Assembly (NCBI GenBank): GCA_022385805.1
Contig: MU277742.1
Span: forward strand, 1-41,070
Origin: Pilatotrama ljubarskyi
Taxonomy: Eukaryota > Basidiomycota > Agaricomycetes > Polyporales > Polyporaceae
DNA length: 41,070 nucleotides
Reading direction: 5' to 3'
The first letter of the stretch is position 1, and every line of letters begins with the position of its first letter. Below, piece by piece: positions 1-41,070 of this stretch. A program made the position numbers and the translations under genes. Under the pieces are notes generated by a model that was not told the DNA's origin, did not search any database, and saw nothing but the letters and a program-made list of their open reading frames with translations.

Positions 1-112
1 GCGAACTCCGAGCGCTCCGTCCTCTGTCACCAGGCCAGGCGGCGTCCCCATCGTCCACGAGACAGCTTCGCGCCGCCCTAAACCTCGCCTTCGCGCCGTC
101 ACCGCCCGCCGC
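1..112. repeat. Left arm of long-range inverted repeat
   Basis: Bases 1-95 are the exact reverse complement of bases 33716-33810. After a 23-bp gap present only in the right copy, about 15 further bases also match (97-111 against 33680-33694). The window edge cuts this arm, so it may extend outside. One reading frame across it is open from the window start, and the matching frame is open in the other copy on the minus strand, so the duplicated segment may once have been coding. Confidence 0.85.
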
Positions 113-573
113 CCGCCTCAGCCGCGAGCGCCGAGCACGCAGCATCGGTCAAGCGTCTCATGCTTCACGGTGCGAGCTTCTCGTCCATTCTTTGGCTCCT
201 TCCTCGTCACCTCATCTCAAATGCTCCCCCTCAGATGCTTCTGGATCCGCGCAAACGGCGCACAGTCATCTCGCTCACGTGCCCTGCTCGGGCCCAGAAG
301 CGTACCATGGCGTTCATGCGTTGCGGAGCATGTTGCTACAGCACCTTCTCCCGCCCATCATCTACTTTGTCAGTTGTCTCGCAGTCTCTTCGCTCTTCGT
401 GCGATAGAAGCCTGAGCGTAAGTAGTGCAGAGCTCACAAGTAGCTATCTGAGCTGTACGTATTCTGAGCGCAATGTTCGTGAAGGAGGTTTGAAGAGAGC
501 TAAGATTGGATCATGGCATAGCACTGGGTATCGTACATCATGCATCAACAGCAAAGTCAGGAAAAGGGGATTG

Positions 574-3034
574 CTAAGTGGAATCAGTATCGAACTGAGC
601 ATCGAGTCGCATGTACACATTCCGCATGAACTCCTGGAAGCTGTTGATCGCCTCTCGGCTCAGAGAGCGAGTGGAATCGCGTGTACGCTCCCCAGTACCG
701 ATAGGAGTCCCCGCGAAGGGACAGCGACGGCGGAAATGATCGGCGCCGTGGCATCCGGAACATCTTAGCCATCTGAGTCGCTGTCCTGCGCGGCAGAGCG
801 GATTAACGTAGGCAAGGTCTCCCAAGGCGTCCCTCCACATGCGCCACTCCGCGACGGAAGTCGTTGGGGATCGGCAGTAGACGTTCACTAGTAGGGGTCC
901 GTTCACGTATAACTCCAGGAAGGATATGCGAACGGAGTCGAGGATGGTCGTATGAATGGCATCTTCCGTCATGCCTTGGAATTCCGGATTTTCGAGTGCC
1001 AGAGACATGGTATGCTCCCGTCGCTGTGGAAGATGCAGGGCTCTGCGCACAGTCTCAAGTAGAGCGCGATGTCGACAGTGGGTGAAACCCTCGAGGGTGA
1101 ATAGGAGAGTGGGGATGGTGGGAGAGAGGTCGTACACGAAGAAGCTGATCGTCTCCGTCCTCCAGAACGCCAGTCTCTTCAGATTGTTGACCGCCGTTCG
1201 AGAAATGTTGTACACAAAATAGCAGGCTGGTGGTGGTTGGAGCATCGAGCCGTCCTCGGCACGTTTCGGGATCGGAGCCGCGATCTCGACCGTCCAGCAA
1301 CCAGTGACGGCACGAATGGCGTCCGCCAAGACTGAGATGCAGAGTCGCGCCTCAAGGTTCGTAGGGAATCCCTGGTCATAGATCTCGACCAATGCGGTGC
1401 TGCGCGGCGACCATTTCCGCCACTCCTGGAGCTGGAAATCCTCGACGTGCAAAACGACGTCCTCAGGATCGGCTCGGTGGACTATGGGAATGTTTAACGT
1501 CTCGTCTCGTGAAGCATGACGAGGCACGGCAGGAGCAGGAGAGTGTTCCATCCCAACACGATGTCGTGTCGATGACGCACGGGATGTTACTGTGCTCGGT
1601 TGCGGGACGGTGCAATAAGAAGAGGGCTCCGCGGACAGACGAATGCTATCACCGTCCTCCCGCGCCGCTTCTCCGATGAGTGCGGCGCCTTGCATCGCGG
1701 CGAAGGGGTCGCGACAGGCGCGAGGCGAGGACGCCGCAAAGATCGAGGGAAGATCGGGAGCTGGAGAAGGAAACGCTCCAGCCTCTGTCTGCGGCGGAGG
1801 ATGAATAGCGAGAGGAAAGGGATCAACGCAATCTGCGCTTGTGGGGAAGTTGGGGGCAGCGCGGTCTGCGGAAGAGGTGAGGACCGCGATCATAGGTCTC
1901 GGGCCAGCATTGCCTGCGTTTCCTGGGGTGTTGCCTGTGGTGGCTGTGAGCTTGTCCTGATCGTGTGCGACGTTCATGCTATGAGATTTTCCCGCTATCA
2001 TCAAGCACTGTCGCTCGTCTCTTCCATCGGCGAGGCAGCGTGCGCGGGCCGTGTCTCCCCGCCCCGAGTTTGAGGCAGTCGGAGGATGTTGGCAAGCGTG
2101 CGTCCGGGAGAGCACCGCGTCACGGTATGAGGGGACTTCTTGTGAGATGGCATCGAATGTAGGAGGCCTCCCCTCCGTCCAGAGATATGCCGGTCTTGAC
2201 TCCGAGTCGCAGTAGCCTCCTTTCGAAGGAACTTCGCCGGTGACGGGTGTTCGCGGTGGCGAGATCCTCCAGTCAGAGCGACCGTACAGTACAACAGGCG
2301 TCGGCCACGGCGACGGGAACGAGGAGTGGTTGTCCACAAGCACCGAAGGGGGGGTGTAGGAGAGTGATTGGCGAAGCGGCCGCCTACGGGCGCGTCCCCG
2401 CGCTGGTGAAGGAACAACTGGGGGACCTGAAGGGGTGACAAACGGCGAGCCCAATGTCGGAAGAGCTGGAGCATCCCTCGAGATGGGATCCAGCATGTCG
2501 CGCTCCGTACTCGTGAGCGCCGCCAGGACGCCCCCGTTCAAGGTGCATCCAGAGAGAGACGGCTGGACGGAGCTAGTGACGCGTTCCCTACAAGAGCCGG
2601 AAGTTGGGATATCAACAGGTGACCCGTGCTGCTGCAAAAGTGTCCTCGGTTCGGACGACGACGGGGCATCGAAGCTGCCGCCGCAGCCTCGAGAAACGTA
2701 CGGGGACGTGTCCTCGGTGTTGACCACATCTCTCTTGAACCGCTTAGGTTGGCTGGGATTGTGCAGCGGTCTATCTGCTTCGGGGGCGCTCTGGTGTCCG
2801 AGTCTCTCTGAAGCACGATACATTGAGCGGCTACGATGGTCATCACCGAATAAACCACTGACCAACGCTCGACGTAACGAAAGGCCTCGGTGATGGCGCC
2901 ATATGATCCATATCCACGGATCCGTCACGCTTTCGTTTGTAAGTGCTCGTTCCTGCAACACCATCTGGTGGTGGGTGACGGAGTCCTCCCGTCGCTGAGA
3001 AAGACTCTTGAAATGTACTGGGTCCAGATCTCAT
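574..3034 (-). CDS. Spliced 801-aa protein with CCHC zinc knuckle, retroelement ORF1-like
   Basis: Two exons: 2863-3034 and 574-2807, joined over a 55-nt intron (2808-2862; donor GTCAGT, acceptor TTCAG, phase 1). The start is the ATG at 3034, with a downstream frame open to the stop at 574. Residues 1 to about 490 are rich in Pro, Ser and Arg and look disordered. From about 495 to 760 the protein becomes ordered-looking and ends in a C-X2-C-X4-H-X4-C knuckle (Cys740, Cys743, His748, Cys753) preceded by a Trp/Arg-rich helix. That layout matches ORF1 (gag-like) proteins of basidiomycete non-LTR retrotransposons, which bind nucleic acid. No endonuclease or RT ORF follows downstream. The intron and the missing ORF2 make a captured host gene possible; an orphan ORF1 or a dead element is the alternative. 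Confidence 0.7.
2808..2862 (-). other. Intron of the CCHC gene
   Basis: Donor GTCAGT and acceptor CTTCAG with TGACC/CTCAA branch-like sequences. Without splicing, the frame beginning at ATG 3034 runs into a stop shortly after the donor, while the exon 2 frame stays open for 2.2 kb. Splicing joins the two best coding frames in phase. Confidence 0.7.
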
Positions 3035-4528
3035 TTGCTATAGGCCGTGGCGGACGAGTAAAACGGTGAGTCAAGGACGGCAGACAGAGATGCCGTGCTT
3101 TTATATGTGACCCACTCACGATACTCATGGCTAGTGCCTGCGCTCTATTCGCAACCGTCAAGCCGTTCAGCGCGCCCTCTATGAACTGAGCCCTTTCGGT
3201 TTGTTTGATGCTCTGCTTTGCCTGCCAGTGAGCGCGTCGCGGACATCCCATGAGAGCGACTCGGACGCCCCGCGAACATTGTTGACGTCGATGATGACGT
3301 CGACATCGATCAGCTGGCACCGCTGGCGTACGACCAGCGACTACTCTCTGCCTTAGCGGCGACTCGAGTATCGATGTGGATTGATCATGAACTGAAGTTT
3401 AATTTGGTCTGAGCCGGCTCCTCCTCCTAGGATCCATCCGGCTCCCGGCAGCGGCCGCACCACGTGTCGCAGCGCCAACTTACACCTCGCCCCAACGGGG
3501 TCATTTCGTGTGCTACTACTTCGTCCGAACTAAAACTACTACGCGCAGGCCGTTACAGATGACCGCCCTCGCGTCCTAATAGTATCCCTGCGCAGTTAAA
3601 TGACCAGATCCCGTGCGTTCTCGTATCCTCCTCTCCTATACATGTGTAGCACGGAGTCGTGCATGCGTGAATGTGTCCCGTGAGAGCGTGCCATCCCAAG
3701 AATGCTCTAGCATCGCCTCCCAAAGTCCACCGTAAGTAAGAGCGAGATCAATCATAGTAGTTGCCTGCGGCCGCCAGTGAGAGCTCGTGGCCCTGCATTG
3801 AGCACGTAACGTCGTCTTACCTCTCAAGATCTAATGCCGCTTGACCTTGTAGATTGGCGACCGAACCAGACGAACGGTTACTAGGCCGGTAATAGTAGTC
3901 TCGTCACCAGCCGTTATAGGAGGTCCTTCCAAAACGGGACGGTATAGAGAACGAGACGGAGGACACGACGAGACTAGGCCGGTAGAGCGCGAGGCCAACT
4001 GTCTTGCAGATTATTCATCATACCACCAGCCGCATCGCAGCGGGTCACGGGTATGCTCGTCCCTCTCTCCGTCATAGAGCACGTCGGAAGGTCTGCGTAG
4101 GAGAGACCAACGGCGCCTCTGAATGTGTACTACGAGTATGTGCACGTCTACCGGCAATGATTGAGCGTTCCGTCAGTTGGAGGGTACTCACCTCTCTGTC
4201 ATTCATCGCGATCACCAGGTTAGAGCATCCTCGATGAGGTCGCATGCACTTCCGATCATATAATGAATATTCTCTGACGCGGTTATGCGACTGAAAGTCG
4301 AGCGGCGCGCCTTGATGCACAGCAGGGGCTTGCCGGTTTGACGGTTCGGAACAGGCCACCGCCGTCTGGGAACCCGCAGTAGAACCAAGGAGAGTTCTTG
4401 CATTTTGGAGGCGTAAACAGCTTCACCTCGGTGCACAGACGGGGGAGTGAACTCATAACAAAATGTCATTAGGACGACGAGGGATCACGAGGCAGGAAGA
4501 GAGAGTGGTTCGTTCAAGTTGGAAAGTT
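3035..4528. other. Intergenic, no gene recognised
   Basis: About 1.5 kb between two minus-strand genes. Only short overlapping ORFs on both strands, none with recognisable motifs or convincing splice-joined coding. It should include the promoter of the CCHC gene (above 3034) and the 3' region of the zinc-cluster gene (below 4529). Confidence 0.5.
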
Positions 4529-6300
4529 TCAGAGACAGTCTCGTAACGCTTCTTCCTCGCTGTCCAAGGCGGCCCGAGGGGCGGACTCAGAGTTGTCGCC
4601 AAGGTCTGGGGTGAAGCACAGCACCGGGTGCTCGTCTGCCGACCCGTAGCATTGCGACATCGTCGCCTGTATAGTCGGAACCAGCGACCGCTCTATGTGA
4701 CTGTGACCTTCATTTCAGAAAACCATGTAAGCTCCCATATGAGCTGAATAATGGACTTACTCGGGACGAACATAATGCTGCAGGTCTTGGAAAGGCGAGT
4801 AAGGAAAGAGATGGGCTGGGTACATATACTGGAGCTGTGAAATGTTCATGTGAGGGGAAATACGACCGACGTCTGGATGGTCAGACGCAGGAACTGGAAT
4901 GAGAGTCGGGAGTGGTTGAGGTTGAGGTTGAGGTGCAGGAGACACAGGAGAGTTTGTCGACTGGCAGGCCGCGCGAGCGAGGATGGCCGGGATAGCTGCA
5001 TAGAGTCGAATCGGCTGAGGGTGATGTACGGGAGGACATTCCTTGCAATATCCTTCGGGAAACTCTTCCCTCGGGCGGCGGGACTCGTCGCTCTTTCCAG
5101 AATCAGTTGTTGCCCAGGCTCCACCAGGGTAGGGGGAGGGTCCAGGCGCGTGTTTTGCTTCGTTTTCAAAGTAGGGAAGCGAGAATGCGGCTGCTGTAGG
5201 CTGGAACGGGACAGGATCGACATGATGAGAAGGTCGTGATACAGTCTCATGAAGACTGTGCAAGATCGAATGGGACGCTTCGGAGGTGGCGTGGTCGACG
5301 GGAGGCTTCTCTTTGGCTGCATATTCGCACTCGATGTCGAGGAGAGTACAATGGCTGCACGCCGGAGAACCTATGTCGCACTACGGGACGAGATTTCCAT
5401 CAAGCGCAAATCCTCACAGGGCGAAAACGGGTCATACCTTCGCGTGGGCCTTTCGGCATCCATAGCACGCATCATATTGTAGACCACGATAACGCCTCTC
5501 CGTGTAGCTGCACACTTCGTCGCGAGTACGGCAATACTTGCAGGCTGGGATATCTCTGCTGCACTAAAATCAATGCCTACATCTGAGACTCTGACACCAC
5601 GGAAGAGCTGAGATCCGAACCTTGATGTGAAGTCTATTGCACGTATCGCAAGCCTTCCGTGGAAAACGAGGATTGGCGGGTGCGTGTTCCTTCCGCACTT
5701 CGTACTCGCATACGATTCCGCCGGAGCGGCATTGAAGACATGTCGGCTCTTCCTGGCTGCACTATCATGCATATCCGCATAAGTCGGTATCGCGTATGAA
5801 TAGGAAGAATAGGCACTTTGACGCGAAACTTGCGGCATGAGCTGCATGGTTGATTGACACGAGGGGGAATCGGTCGCTTCTGCATGTTAATCAGCCTGCG
5901 ATGCCTAGGACAAGGAGCGGGACGAGATGCGTACCGAGGCACGACGATTGGGACGCCTCGTGACTGTTGCTTCCGTTCTTTGTGGATCATCGGTGGAGGG
6001 CGAGCATAGGAGTAGGGATAGGCCTTCTTTCCCGGGGAAGGTGGCTGTATGATATCCTTCATAGTCCGGTCCCCACGGCACGTCGTGAGGGATGAGATTC
6101 CACTGGCCCACTGGAGCGATTGCCACGTCAGACGAGTTGTTTGCGGGAGCAGAGGATATGGTCGGTGGTATGTCGGAAGCCCAAGGTCCTGAAGCTTCCC
6201 CGTCCTCAGGCTGGGGAAGCGGCTGGTAGTGTTCGAATGTGATTTCTGAGGCAAGAGGGGAATGTTCCTCGTCCATGTCGACACTCGATGGCGCAGACAT
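4529..6300 (-). CDS. Triple tandem Zn2Cys6 zinc-cluster protein (495 aa, six exons)
   Basis: Exons, in order of reading: 6300-5935, 5879-5817, 5761-5621, 5563-5438, 5380-4761, 4700-4529. All junctions keep phase and give 495 aa. Residues 1-122 are acidic and Pro/Ser-rich. Three clusters follow, each exactly C-X2-C-X6-C-X6-C-X2-C-X6-C: Cys134/137/144/151/154/161, Cys181/184/191/198/201/208 and Cys223/226/233/240/243/250, with basic residues between the second and third Cys as in Gal4-type DNA-binding domains. The C-terminal half is low-complexity (a Pro-Gln run) and ends in an acidic Asp/Glu-rich tail that could be an activation region. I see no fungal-specific middle homology domain. Family knowledge: Zn2Cys6 proteins are fungal transcription factors and normally carry one cluster. 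DNA binding in the nucleus is inferred; targets are unknown. Confidence 0.9.
5381..5437 (-). other. Intron splitting zinc cluster 3 before its third Cys
   Basis: 57 nt, GTATGA...CCGTAG, phase 0, directly before the TGC codon of Cys233. The remaining introns of the gene are 5880-5934 (GTACGC...CAG, before cluster 1) and 4701-4760 (GTAAGT...CAG, in the C-terminal region). Confidence 0.85.
5564..5620 (-). other. Intron splitting zinc cluster 2 before its third Cys
   Basis: 57 nt, GTTCGG...TTTTAG, phase 0, directly before the TGC codon of Cys191, the same position in the module as in clusters 1 and 3. Confidence 0.85.
5762..5816 (-). other. Intron splitting zinc cluster 1 before its third Cys
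   Basis: 55 nt, GTGCCT...GATAG, phase 0, directly before the TGC codon of Cys144. The unspliced frame misses the third to sixth cysteines and the target frame has a TAG just upstream of the acceptor, so splicing is needed to complete the cluster. Confidence 0.85.
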
Positions 6301-7435: not shown

Positions 7436-8069
7436 CAAAATCACTTTTTCCGACAACAAAGGAACCCGGGAGAGCCTGAGCAAGAGTTTCAATATAGAGG
7501 TTAACTTCCTCGCCTATCAGGCGTAATTCAGTACGAACCCACCCGGGCGACTATCACGACTCGAGGCAATAGCCCTAGTCTCGTTCTCATCCCTTCTGGC
7601 GCTACTGTAACTGGTTCTACAGGTCTCTCTCAACTGGCGCTCTCCAGCCAGTGAGTTGCTCTTCGTTCTGATTGGTCCCTGGCTCTGAGCGTAGCGAAGC
7701 GTTGGTGAGTGCCGCTGAGAGAGACCTGGAGAACGTCTGGAGCCGAGACTACAATAGCCCAAGCTCTGGCCCGGAACAGGCAGGGGAGACGGGCGGAATT
7801 GTTCTCCTGGTTCTGGCGCGGAGACAGCCTGGGAATTCCGATAACAGAGCACAAAGCGCCGCATTGGGGTTGCTTGTTATCCAGTAAGTAATGGTACTTA
7901 CTAGTCTCCCCTAGGCAGACGTCGCGAAGTGCAAGCACAACGAGGTACTTACCCAGATTCCGGACCCGAACCAACTTGTAATTATAAACAGGTTGTCGAC
8001 AGGAGTCCAATTCAGGCCAAATTCCTGGCCTGTTCAGGAGCAGAGCACGGGCGATTTGAACCATAAAGA

Positions 8070-25859: not shown

Positions 25860-27996
25860 GCTGGTCATCACACTTGCACGCGAGGCAGCGTGGACGGGGT
25901 CCCATATGCCGGCGTACCTCTAAAGTGTAGCACGTGGTGATGCAGGACAGGAAGGCGGCCAGACTGCATGGTCGTGAGGTGAAGATGCTCCGCCAGGGAG
26001 GCCTGCGGATGAGCACGAGCTGATCGGACAGCGTCTGAGGAAGGAAAGTGGCCTACCAAGAGTATGACCGGCACAGGTAGCGCAGCGCCCACTTGAGGTC
26101 CCCCCACCAAGCTAGCAGTGAGCTGCTACTGTTCAGAGCAGGCAGCGCGCAGCAGCGGTGGACACGTGTCGGTGAGGATATACAGCAGGACACGGAGCGC
26201 GAGGTCGTAGCGACAGTAGCGGAGCGGCCAGGTGCCCGTCTCGGGGAAGAGGGGGGAGTGCTGTGCTCGGCTGCTCACATGCAGAGCGCGGCGGAGATAT
26301 GTGTGCTGTACATCTCGCAGGGCAGCGAGTGAAGTGAGGCAGCTGTCGAGTGCGACTTCGCAGCCCGCGACGAGTTGTGAGTTCACGTGTGTGCGGTATA
26401 GCTTCAAGGCAATGCCGGGAGGGAGTGGGCCAAGGTATGACTTCAGGGCAAGGGACGCATTGGCAGCCCGTTGCGCTGCAGCGTGCTTCTTCAGGTAGTG
26501 CTGCAGGAAGATGTCGGGGTCCGTCCCGTCATGCCCACATACGTCGCACTTGCAACATACTGCAGAGGCTCGCCATAGAGCATGAGTGGAGGCAGAGGAC
26601 TTGGGACATTCACGAGAAGGAAAGATGTCGCGCAGTAGTGGTTGAAGTAGTCGAGCTTGTTCTGCATTCCAAACACAAAGAGGCTGATGAACGCCATGTC
26701 GTCTGCGAGCTCCAGGTGTGACACCACCCAGTCAGAGAGGGAGAGGTCATCTGGATGGCCGGGTAGGTCGAAGTCGGACTGGAACAAGATCCACAACATG
26801 GGGAGGCCGGGTCGCCAATGAGGATCCCCATAAACGCTTCGAAGCACTCTGTGGTATCTCCACCAAAGCGTACCATGTAGCGGAGGTGTGCGTAGAGCAT
26901 GCGCAGCCAGTCGAAGAGCGGACCACAGATACCCGAGCGAGCGAGCTTCGCCCATAGCGCGGGTTGATCAACAGAAGGGAACGCGTTGGCGAGGTCGAGG
27001 ATGACAATGAACAAGGCACCCCCGAGCGCGCGGGCCTTCTCAATCGCTGCACGAAGGATATAGGCATTATTGGGGGTGCAGTGCCCTGGTCGGAACCTAC
27101 TTGAGAGTCAGGGAGGCGCCCAGTATCCGTAGCCCACGGGCGAAGGCGCCGCTCAATGAGCACTGTGAGCGTCTTGAGGAGGCAGCTCTCGAGGCCAATG
27201 GTTCGGTAGCTCTCAGGCTCGCAACCGTCCTTCTTGAGCTTCTTGACAGCGGCTACGATGGCGGTAAGCCGGGCAGAACGGGCTTCGCAGCGGTTGATGC
27301 ACTCCTGGAAGAGCTCCCGGGCAGAGTGCAGATTGCGTGAGCGAAGGTGTACTTTGACATTGTCGACCTCCTCAACGGTGATAGGGCGGGAGAAGTGGCG
27401 CCCAGCTGAGGTATCTGTAGTGCTATGTGGGAGGTTGTGTACATGGAGACGACTCAGGGCATGGGCGGTGGGCCGTGACGAGCAGTCCACGAGGCTAATC
27501 GCCTGTAAGCTCGCGGAGTACGCCAGATCTCCCCCGGTGAGGCAAGGAGCAGGCGCTCGAGGGTGACGCGGGCGTAGACCAAGCAGTGGGGGATACTCCG
27601 TACCCGAGCCCTCCCAGCGTAGCTCATCCAGCGCGGGGAATGAGCAAGGAGGGTCGCGGAAAGGGCGAATTTTTGCTGTGGAGGGGCCGTCCACGGGCAG
27701 ACGTGGCAGAATACGAGGTAGTACCGGCTGTAGTCGTGAGGCCACACTGCGCTGGAGTCAGAGAACAATACCGACGCTGTCCGAAGGACGACCTCCGTAC
27801 GTACTATAGGCTGGGTTTCAGCAGCGGCGAGCTGCTCTGACGTGTCGCGGACGACGTCAAGGGGCCATTGTCTCGTGGATTCGCCAACGCAGGGCAGTGG
27901 ATGAAGCTGAAGTGGTGATCTGTTGTCTCGACAGCGTTGCATCCAGAAAGACACCAGGGCGTACAGCTGGTCGCTATAACGCGGAGCTCGAGTCAT
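25860..27996 (-). pseudogene. LINE relic: reverse transcriptase region
   Basis: Minus-strand frames read in order: an N-terminal tract (27996-27454), R-P-I-T-V-E-E-V near 27380, the fingers region with E-S-Y-R-T-I-G-L near 27220, F-I-V-I-L-D-L-A-N-A-F-P-S-V-D near 27000 (first catalytic Asp), L-A-D-D-M-A-F-I near 26690 (the A-D-D catalytic pair), Y-V-G-M-T near 26530, then a C-terminal tract to about 25860. At least two frameshifts (near 27090 and 26520) and a probable internal deletion break the ORF. The catalytic residues are still recognisable, so the copy is younger than the LINE at 16.5 kb or under less decay. No endonuclease domain is seen here. Confidence 0.8.
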
Positions 27997-39591: not shown

Positions 39592-40460
39592 TCATGGGGT
39601 CGGCCTGGACCGGAGAAAACAGGGCCATATAGCGACACCGGAGCCTGCGTGACCTTCACACAAGTCGTCGTAGAGAGCGAGCTCTCCCGATGCAATCCAA
39701 GGCGGTCCTGGGCTGATCGGTGACAGGTATTCAGGACCAGGGACAGGTAGGTCACCCGTGTCCACCATCAGCGCCTGCGTCGGGGCGGTCCATCCGGGAG
39801 CACCTGCATTGCAGCGTTCTGACGCGATTCCAGGAAGTGGGGCCGGATCGACGCTAGGTCGGCAAAAAGCCGAGCTTGCACGCAGTGATGATGGTATTTC
39901 CTGTGTCCATACGGTTGCACCGTAGGCTGCGGAGCCCGCGTCAGTCCTTTGAGATCGCGATAATGCACCAGGGCTACGACTCATCTCGACGTACCGGGCT
40001 TGAGCGAGCATCCGGCATCGCCAACCTTCGTATTACCACGCCGAGTACGCCCAGGCTCCCTGCGACGCGGACGGTAGACGTAGTCTGGATATGTCTTCAT
40101 GTGTTCTCGGGTCGCTTTGTGAGCCAAACCATCCCAGTAACGCCTTTCAGTCTGAGACAGAGCTCTCCATTCTCGAGCGATGATGACAGACAATTCGCTC
40201 TGGCGCGGTCTACCCTTGAGGCTCCCCGGCGGCCGACTATCATCGAACGTCGCATATAGCTTCGCTTGGAGACGTTTACGGAACAATATGAAGCTGTTGG
40301 GCGGTCTCTTGACGTAGCCCGTGCGACGAAGTCGACTGTTATCCGAGGGCCCCGAGGAGCGCAGGGGACGAACCGAAGGCGCATGTGTCAAACCTGGGAC
40401 GGCGGCACGCGCTACCAGAGCCTGGCCCTCGCCGTGGGTATGCGAAGGTGCCAATCGCAT
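39592..40460 (-). CDS. HMG-box DNA-binding protein (266 aa)
   Basis: Exon 1 (40460-39995) and exon 2 (39926-39592) join over a 68-nt intron (39927-39994; GTACGT donor, ACTGAC branch point, CGCAG acceptor, phase 1). The start is the ATG at 40460; an in-frame TAG lies a short way upstream and the codons between lack ATG. Residues about 49-130 form a MATA/Ste11-type HMG box: Y-V-K-R-P-P-N-S-F-I-L-F, then S-E-L-S-V-I-I-A-R-E-W-R, then Y-P-D-Y-V-Y-R-P. This family binds AT-rich sites in the minor groove and includes fungal mating and sexual-development regulators, but no mating-locus partner is visible here. The C-terminal part is Pro-rich. A further intron could shift the last residues to a frame ending at 39516. 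Confidence 0.85.
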
Positions 40461-41070
40461 TCGCGCCGCAGGAGAGCGAGGCTCGGGCAAGAGCTAAAGG
40501 TCTCGACCAGCTGGTCTAATGGGTGCTGACAGGAGCAGCGTTTCGAGTGGGATGCGAGACCGACGGACTGTCAGAGCACCCACGCCTGATGATAACGAGG
40601 GAAGAGACAGCAGAAGAGGGGGAAGGAGGAGACCGCAGAGAAGATCTAGAGTCAAGCTCTTGCCCAACGGTCGATATATGGGCTCGTCACTTGAGTCACC
40701 GGGGTGAACTGCGGTTCACCTAGCGTAGACCATAAGGTCCAGGTACCAATACCATCATGATTGATTACAGGCAGAGGATGGTCGGACTGACCACCTGGAA
40801 GGCACAGCACGAAACCAAGGAGGCGGCGTCAGATTGTGATTGTGGTGCTCGTGCAAGGATGCGCTACGACGGGGCACGGACGCCCTGCGAGAGGGAAGTG
40901 ACAGGTCATCAAAGCGATCGTAGAAGCGACCCACGTGTATCCTGTTATTCTTCCGCGGCGGCGGCCGTAGGAACGGCGGGAGGACGAGGACGGCTGAGAG
41001 GTGACACCGCTCGCAGGACCTGTGTGCTGTTCATTGATGAGCAAAGGATCGGTGAATCCGTATGGGGGGG
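40461..41070. promoter_or_regulatory. Upstream region of the HMG-box gene
   Basis: No gene recognised in the last 600 bases; short frames only. It should contain the promoter of the minus-strand HMG gene, but no specific element stands out. Confidence 0.3.

Follow-up and report, generated by a model that had tools for sequence, protein, structure and literature searches.

The window, by which we mean the whole 41,070-nucleotide stretch analysed (C73:1-41070, on a contig of 142,972 bases in a genome assembly of 33.1 Mb and 173 contigs), carries near its start a gene on the minus strand, running from 6300 to 4529. Its six exons of 366, 63, 141, 126, 620 and 172 nt yield a predicted protein of 495 amino acids followed by a stop, with three zinc clusters, each divided by an intron at the border between Lys and the third cysteine (Cys3):

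Exon 1, 5935..6300, minus strand: start codon at 6300; open frame; N-terminal region shared with a paralogue on contig C61 (W-N-L-I-P-x-D-V-P-W-G-P...), from BLASTP and tblastn
Intron 1, 5880..5934, minus strand: 55 nt, phase 0; one among many open alternatives
Exon 2, 5817..5879, minus strand: first half of cluster 1 (CSSCRKFRVK)
Intron 2, 5762..5816, minus strand: 55 nt, phase 0, at the Lys/Cys3 border of cluster 1
Exon 3, 5621..5761, minus strand: 141 nt, phase 0 at both ends; completes cluster 1, spans the linker of 19 residues and supplies the first half of cluster 2
Intron 3, 5564..5620, minus strand: 57 nt, phase 0, at the Lys/Cys3 border of cluster 2
Exon 4, 5438..5563, minus strand: 126 nt, phase 0 at both ends; completes cluster 2, spans the linker of 14 residues and supplies the first half of cluster 3
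Intron 4, 5381..5437, minus strand: 57 nt, phase 0, at the Lys/Cys3 border of cluster 3
Exon 5, 4761..5380, minus strand: completes cluster 3, followed by a C-terminal region rich in Pro; no Pfam hit other than Zn_clus
Intron 5, 4701..4760, minus strand: 60 nt, GTAAGT...CACAG, splice consensus
Exon 6, 4529..4700, minus strand: C-terminus and stop; open frame

The positions of introns 2 to 4 are fixed, as the clusters themselves dictate them, and exon 1 and the reading frame are supported by the BLASTP match of the N-terminus and cluster 1 to the C61 paralogue (E 2e-19). Intron 1 was selected for its usual length and branch-like CTGAT; it joins two frames and agrees with the residue numbering of the original prediction, while intron 5 and exon 6 were placed by splice consensus and open frame only. 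A start at a downstream ATG (6062) without intron 1 also leaves an open frame, of 434 amino acids, and was dropped because exon 1 is clearly homologous to C61. Three separate genes were ruled out, because a single open frame extends without interruption through exon 3, and likewise through exon 4, from one cluster into the next.

Elsewhere the window contains:

1..3419: repeated at C73:82144-85504 on the same contig with 98% identity
577..3030, minus strand: open frame of 818 codons within this repeat, 100% identical in both copies; C60 and C45 carry weaker relatives, and Pfam gives no match at E 0.01
7614..7734: inverted repeat with 19-nt arms, 95% complementary and 83 nt apart
26613..27107, minus strand: fragment resembling a reverse transcriptase (Pfam RVT_1 at 26.1 bits, short of the 29.6-bit cut-off); several contigs carry relatives, of which the best is 90% identical
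39984..40493, minus strand: HMG-box open frame (Pfam, 43.8 bits)

The repeat at 1-3419 represents either a recent duplication or an assembly effect. Rfam returned 0 matches at gathering scores in the window, and a bacterial promoter scan yielded nothing useful.

Three zinc clusters in one chain

The spliced protein holds three C-X2-C-X6-C-X6-C-X2-C-X6-C modules at exactly residues 134-161, 181-208 and 223-250, with starts 47 and 42 residues apart and linkers of 19 and 14 residues. Cluster 1 reads CSSCRKFRVK/CSQEEPTCLQCRSGGIVC, cluster 2 CDTCNRLHIK/CSRDIPACKYCRTRDEVC and cluster 3 CYGCRKAHAK/CDIGSPACSHCTLLDIEC, the slash marking the intron of 55, 57 and 57 nt, respectively. The tandem of perfect modules and the phase-0 intron of 55-57 nt directly before the TGC codon of Cys3, both put forward in the original prediction, are hence confirmed. 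Each module has the spacing that we take to characterize the Zn_clus family (PF00172), C-X2-C-X6-C-X5-12-C-X2-C-X6-9-C. Indeed, three Zn_clus stretches were recovered from the whole 495-residue protein (E 1.6e-19), the number anticipated for such a scan, and the modules taken singly reach 35.8, 36.0 and 37.5 bits against a curated cut-off of 21 bits. Single modules also gave matches to Opy2 and FAM221, which were weak and below their cut-offs. As Pfam finds only Zn_clus up to E 0.1, the middle homology domain (Fungal_trans), a usual feature of GAL4-like factors, is absent from the protein, in agreement with the original prediction.

The case for three clusters rests on profile and homology, because the bare cysteine spacing is no better than chance: a scan for second cluster halves returned 8 matches in the window versus 3.74 expected, and 6 of 100 shuffles reach 8. 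When the genome was searched in six frames without splicing, two second halves out of the three appeared among the Zn_clus matches listed, weakly and short of the cut-off (19.1 and 17.0 bits).

Comparison of the modules with each other revealed that the cysteine columns are invariant at 6 of 6 positions versus 2 of 22 for the remainder (Fisher 7e-5), while nucleotide identity between modules amounts to 48-57% in the coding halves and 27-36% in the introns (ungapped). The copies have thus diverged to near saturation with all 18 cysteines kept. The low identity points to an old duplication, and the retention of the cysteines despite the divergence argues for selection on them, and hence for a protein that is used.

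Single-cluster relatives and the shared intron

The C61 paralogue (G000:C61:145.7-146.9 kb; L017, start codon at 4886, minus strand) shares with the window gene the N-terminal region and cluster 1, at 36% identity over 126 columns, as well as a phase-0 intron of 63 nt at the same position before Cys3. Its only cluster also matches cluster 3 of the window gene with the downstream flank (E 4e-8) and cluster 2 with the upstream flank (E 7e-7). In contrast to the window gene, however, it has a single cluster, lacks an intron separating that cluster from the N-terminus and carries Lys at GAL4 position 18, and its GC3 is higher (0.72 in the partial coding sequences of C61 and of the C83 relative, versus 0.55).

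To place the intron in a wider frame, zinc clusters across the genome were considered. The many Zn_clus genes with short introns suggest that the genome is fungal. At least 57 Zn_clus matches were listed at E up to 10 (58 candidates scored); two of these are the window gene and two a single place on C26, so that with a place on C9 (390.9 kb) 55 other cluster places result. Splicing was resolved at 43 of the 55, 10 with an uninterrupted cluster and 33 with one or two introns in it; some of the intron solutions (C115, C26, C3:233k) look doubtful. The exact Lys/Cys3 intron occurs at five of the 43 resolved places, C61, C83, C9:390k, C57 and C17:298k, with approximately 580 bases read for each of the last two. 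One codon earlier, an intron is present in six clusters of five genes (C40:70k, C13, C8, C92 and both clusters of C3), and the remaining introns lie elsewhere. The Lys/Cys3 intron is therefore a minority class, and at least three of the relatives sharing it are single-cluster genes. A position common to the three modules and to such relatives fits duplication after the intron was already present. In viral contigs, the search for relatives gave no match; one pattern match is unconfirmed.

Pfam detected only Zn_clus and no middle homology domain in C61 (368 amino acids), C83 and C9:390k, each scanned up to the last exon or exons. As these three single-cluster relatives show none either, the lack of the domain in the window gene is ordinary, and it is uninformative on the non-DNA role that had been raised as one option for the three-cluster protein.

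Two-cluster genes in the same genome

Zn_clus proteins with two clusters are known from fungi, and the original prediction, which had presented the three-cluster arrangement as exceptional, is at odds with two further genes of this genome that follow the same pattern with other intron positions. Like the window gene, both have more than one cluster with every cluster split at the same place or places, but they have two clusters. In the C66 gene (G000:C66:160.5-161.5 kb; L024:5488-6480), two clusters approximately 215 residues apart are each split by a phase-1 intron after Cys2-Arg. Analogously, the two clusters of the C3 gene (G000:C3:554.2-554.8 kb; L070, minus strand) are each split twice, by a phase-2 intron within the Arg after Cys2 and a phase-0 intron one codon before Cys3. 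Pfam recognizes two Zn_clus stretches in each protein, the scanned C66 protein beginning after the intron of the first cluster, with Ala in place of the spliced Ser at residue 1. The C66 clusters pair in the tree (77/74), those of C3 do not (38 rows). The double splits of C3 leave a tiny exon in the contact loop, and approximately 3.6 kb upstream of the C66 gene, on the same strand, lies another cluster whose intron occupies the same position (L024, approximately 1870-2090).

The intron position is accordingly shared within each gene (3 of 3 in the window gene, 2 of 2 in C66 and 2 of 2 in C3) and differs between genes. Such within-gene agreement and between-gene difference is the pattern that independent internal duplications would produce.

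Origin of the three clusters

The ancestor would have been a single-cluster gene similar to the C61 paralogue, with the phase-0 intron before Cys3 already in place. A coding block including this intron would then have undergone two rounds of in-place duplication, the breaks falling within the linkers, which left each cluster with its intron. Taken together, the shared intron position, the gene-level homology and the flanks make in-place duplication of an intron-bearing gene the best reading of the origin of the three clusters. The duplication of an exon-intron-exon unit proposed in the original prediction therefore stands as the preferred account, with the same intron in C61 and all modules aligning to the C61 cluster; it is unproven, as the trees neither support nor reject it. 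The modules are not united with support in any tree, and a single clade of all three obtained AU p values of 0.425 (27 rows) and 0.303 (all 38 rows). These trees are built on approximately 30 residues with very long branches, the 27-row version leaving out 11 of the 38 rows and starting from the first Cys.

Alternatively, clusters 2 and/or 3 could have been copied from other genes with the Lys/Cys3 intron by exon shuffling, rather than from cluster 1. The best BLOSUM scores of clusters 2 and 3 are indeed with C17:298k and C13 and not with each other, C17:298k carries the same intron, and a draft FastTree groups cluster 2 with C17:298k at a support of 0.938, the leading residue being unchecked in several rows. 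A tree with this pairing is also not rejected (AU p 0.297, 38 rows) and fits about equally well as the one-clade tree. Against shuffling, clusters 2 and 3 have flanks that match C61, two maximum-likelihood trees lack a direct pairing of cluster 2 with C17:298k, and, with so few residues and such long branches, the three-module clade is likewise not rejected. We consider shuffling unlikely.

Contact loops and predicted function

Zn2Cys6 factors form a very large class of fungal regulators, which usually have one cluster and pair to read two triplets. By sequence, the relatives with solved structures are the DNA-binding domains of GAL4, LAC9, PUT3, HAP1/CYP1 and PPR1, and weakly Cep3. Compared with the usual Zn_clus protein, the window gene deviates in having three modules per chain and unusual residues at loop positions 17 and 18, where Lys17 and Lys18 of GAL4 have roles in the contact loop. 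Clusters 1, 2 and 3 have F/R, L/H and A/H at these positions. Contact loops were readable at 49 of the 55 other places (six had no readable loop); among these, Arg or Lys occupies position 17 in 32 and Lys position 18 in 43. Lys at position 18, usual for Zn_clus though not strictly defining, is hence found in none of the three modules. The six exceptions at this position include C57 (Gln) and C17:298k (Asn), both relatives with the Lys/Cys3 intron, so the departure is not confined to the window gene.

With the residues they have at positions 17 and 18, clusters 2 and 3 may bind DNA differently or no longer at all. If none of the clusters bound DNA any longer, the protein could serve as a zinc-dependent scaffold for protein contacts or as a titrating partner, congruent with loops that deviate from what is usual in this genome, at GAL4 positions 17 and 18 in every cluster and at position 15 in cluster 2. 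However, Lys20 is kept in all three, Arg at position 18 recurs in C47 and C65:71k, and PUT3, which binds DNA, has His at position 18, so R or H at this position need not abolish binding. The PUT3 loop CLSCRKRHIKC (PDB 1AJY, 1ZME) is moreover resembled by that of cluster 3, C-x2-C-R-K-x-H-x-K-C. We therefore regard a complete loss of DNA binding as quite unlikely.

Rather, extrapolating from the family, the product would be a regulator that binds DNA and recognizes a composite site with a single chain; the multi-site recognition suggested originally is retained in this predicted form. The three modules and their linkers would constitute a covalent array, in which one chain contacts two or three adjacent DNA triplets and works without a coiled-coil dimer of the GAL4 type. 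In this respect it would differ from PUT3, which we take to have one cluster per chain and to bind as a dimer. Cluster 1, nearest to the single-cluster relatives, would be closest to the ancestral specificity; the loops of clusters 2 and 3 are altered, in part towards PUT3.

A pseudogene in decay, or a wrongly spliced model that overstates the number of clusters, to which the weak donors of introns 2 and 3 (GTGCCT, GTTCGG), the low GC3 and the reverse-transcriptase fragment and 3.4-kb repeat on the same contig could point, is highly improbable, considering that all exons are open, that 18 of 18 cysteines are kept while other positions diverged, and that the donors of C61 (GTACCG) and C83 (GTTCGT) at the same intron site are similarly unusual. 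Aggregated, the sequence data favor, as the probable reading, that 6300-4529 on the minus strand is a real gene for a three-cluster nuclear regulator of the fungal Zn2Cys6 class, derived from a single-cluster gene by in-place duplication and acting as a one-chain array.

The exon arrangement has a further potential consequence. Exons 3 and 4 (141 and 126 nt) are phase 0 at both ends and extend from mid-cluster to the middle of the next cluster; being phase-symmetric with borders inside clusters, they can be skipped in any combination with the frame maintained and a complete chimeric cluster built, one module contributing the DNA-contact half and a second module the zinc-closing half. The three possible chimeras score 32.4, 38.4 and 41.5 bits against Pfam Zn_clus, all above the cut-off. 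Skipping could thereby generate four proteins, with three, two, two and one cluster, and splicing would operate as a combinatorial switch of DNA specificity. Exon skipping is rare in fungi, and we assign such a switch only a slim chance. With these symmetric cassette exons, a change of DNA specificity through splicing can be tested directly.

That this genome has three multi-cluster genes, and that the clusters of each share an intron position particular to that gene, suggests that clusters have been multiplied repeatedly, and the intron position provides a clean marker to date and trace such multiplication. For this regulator class, a three-cluster chain could substitute covalent linkage for pairing.
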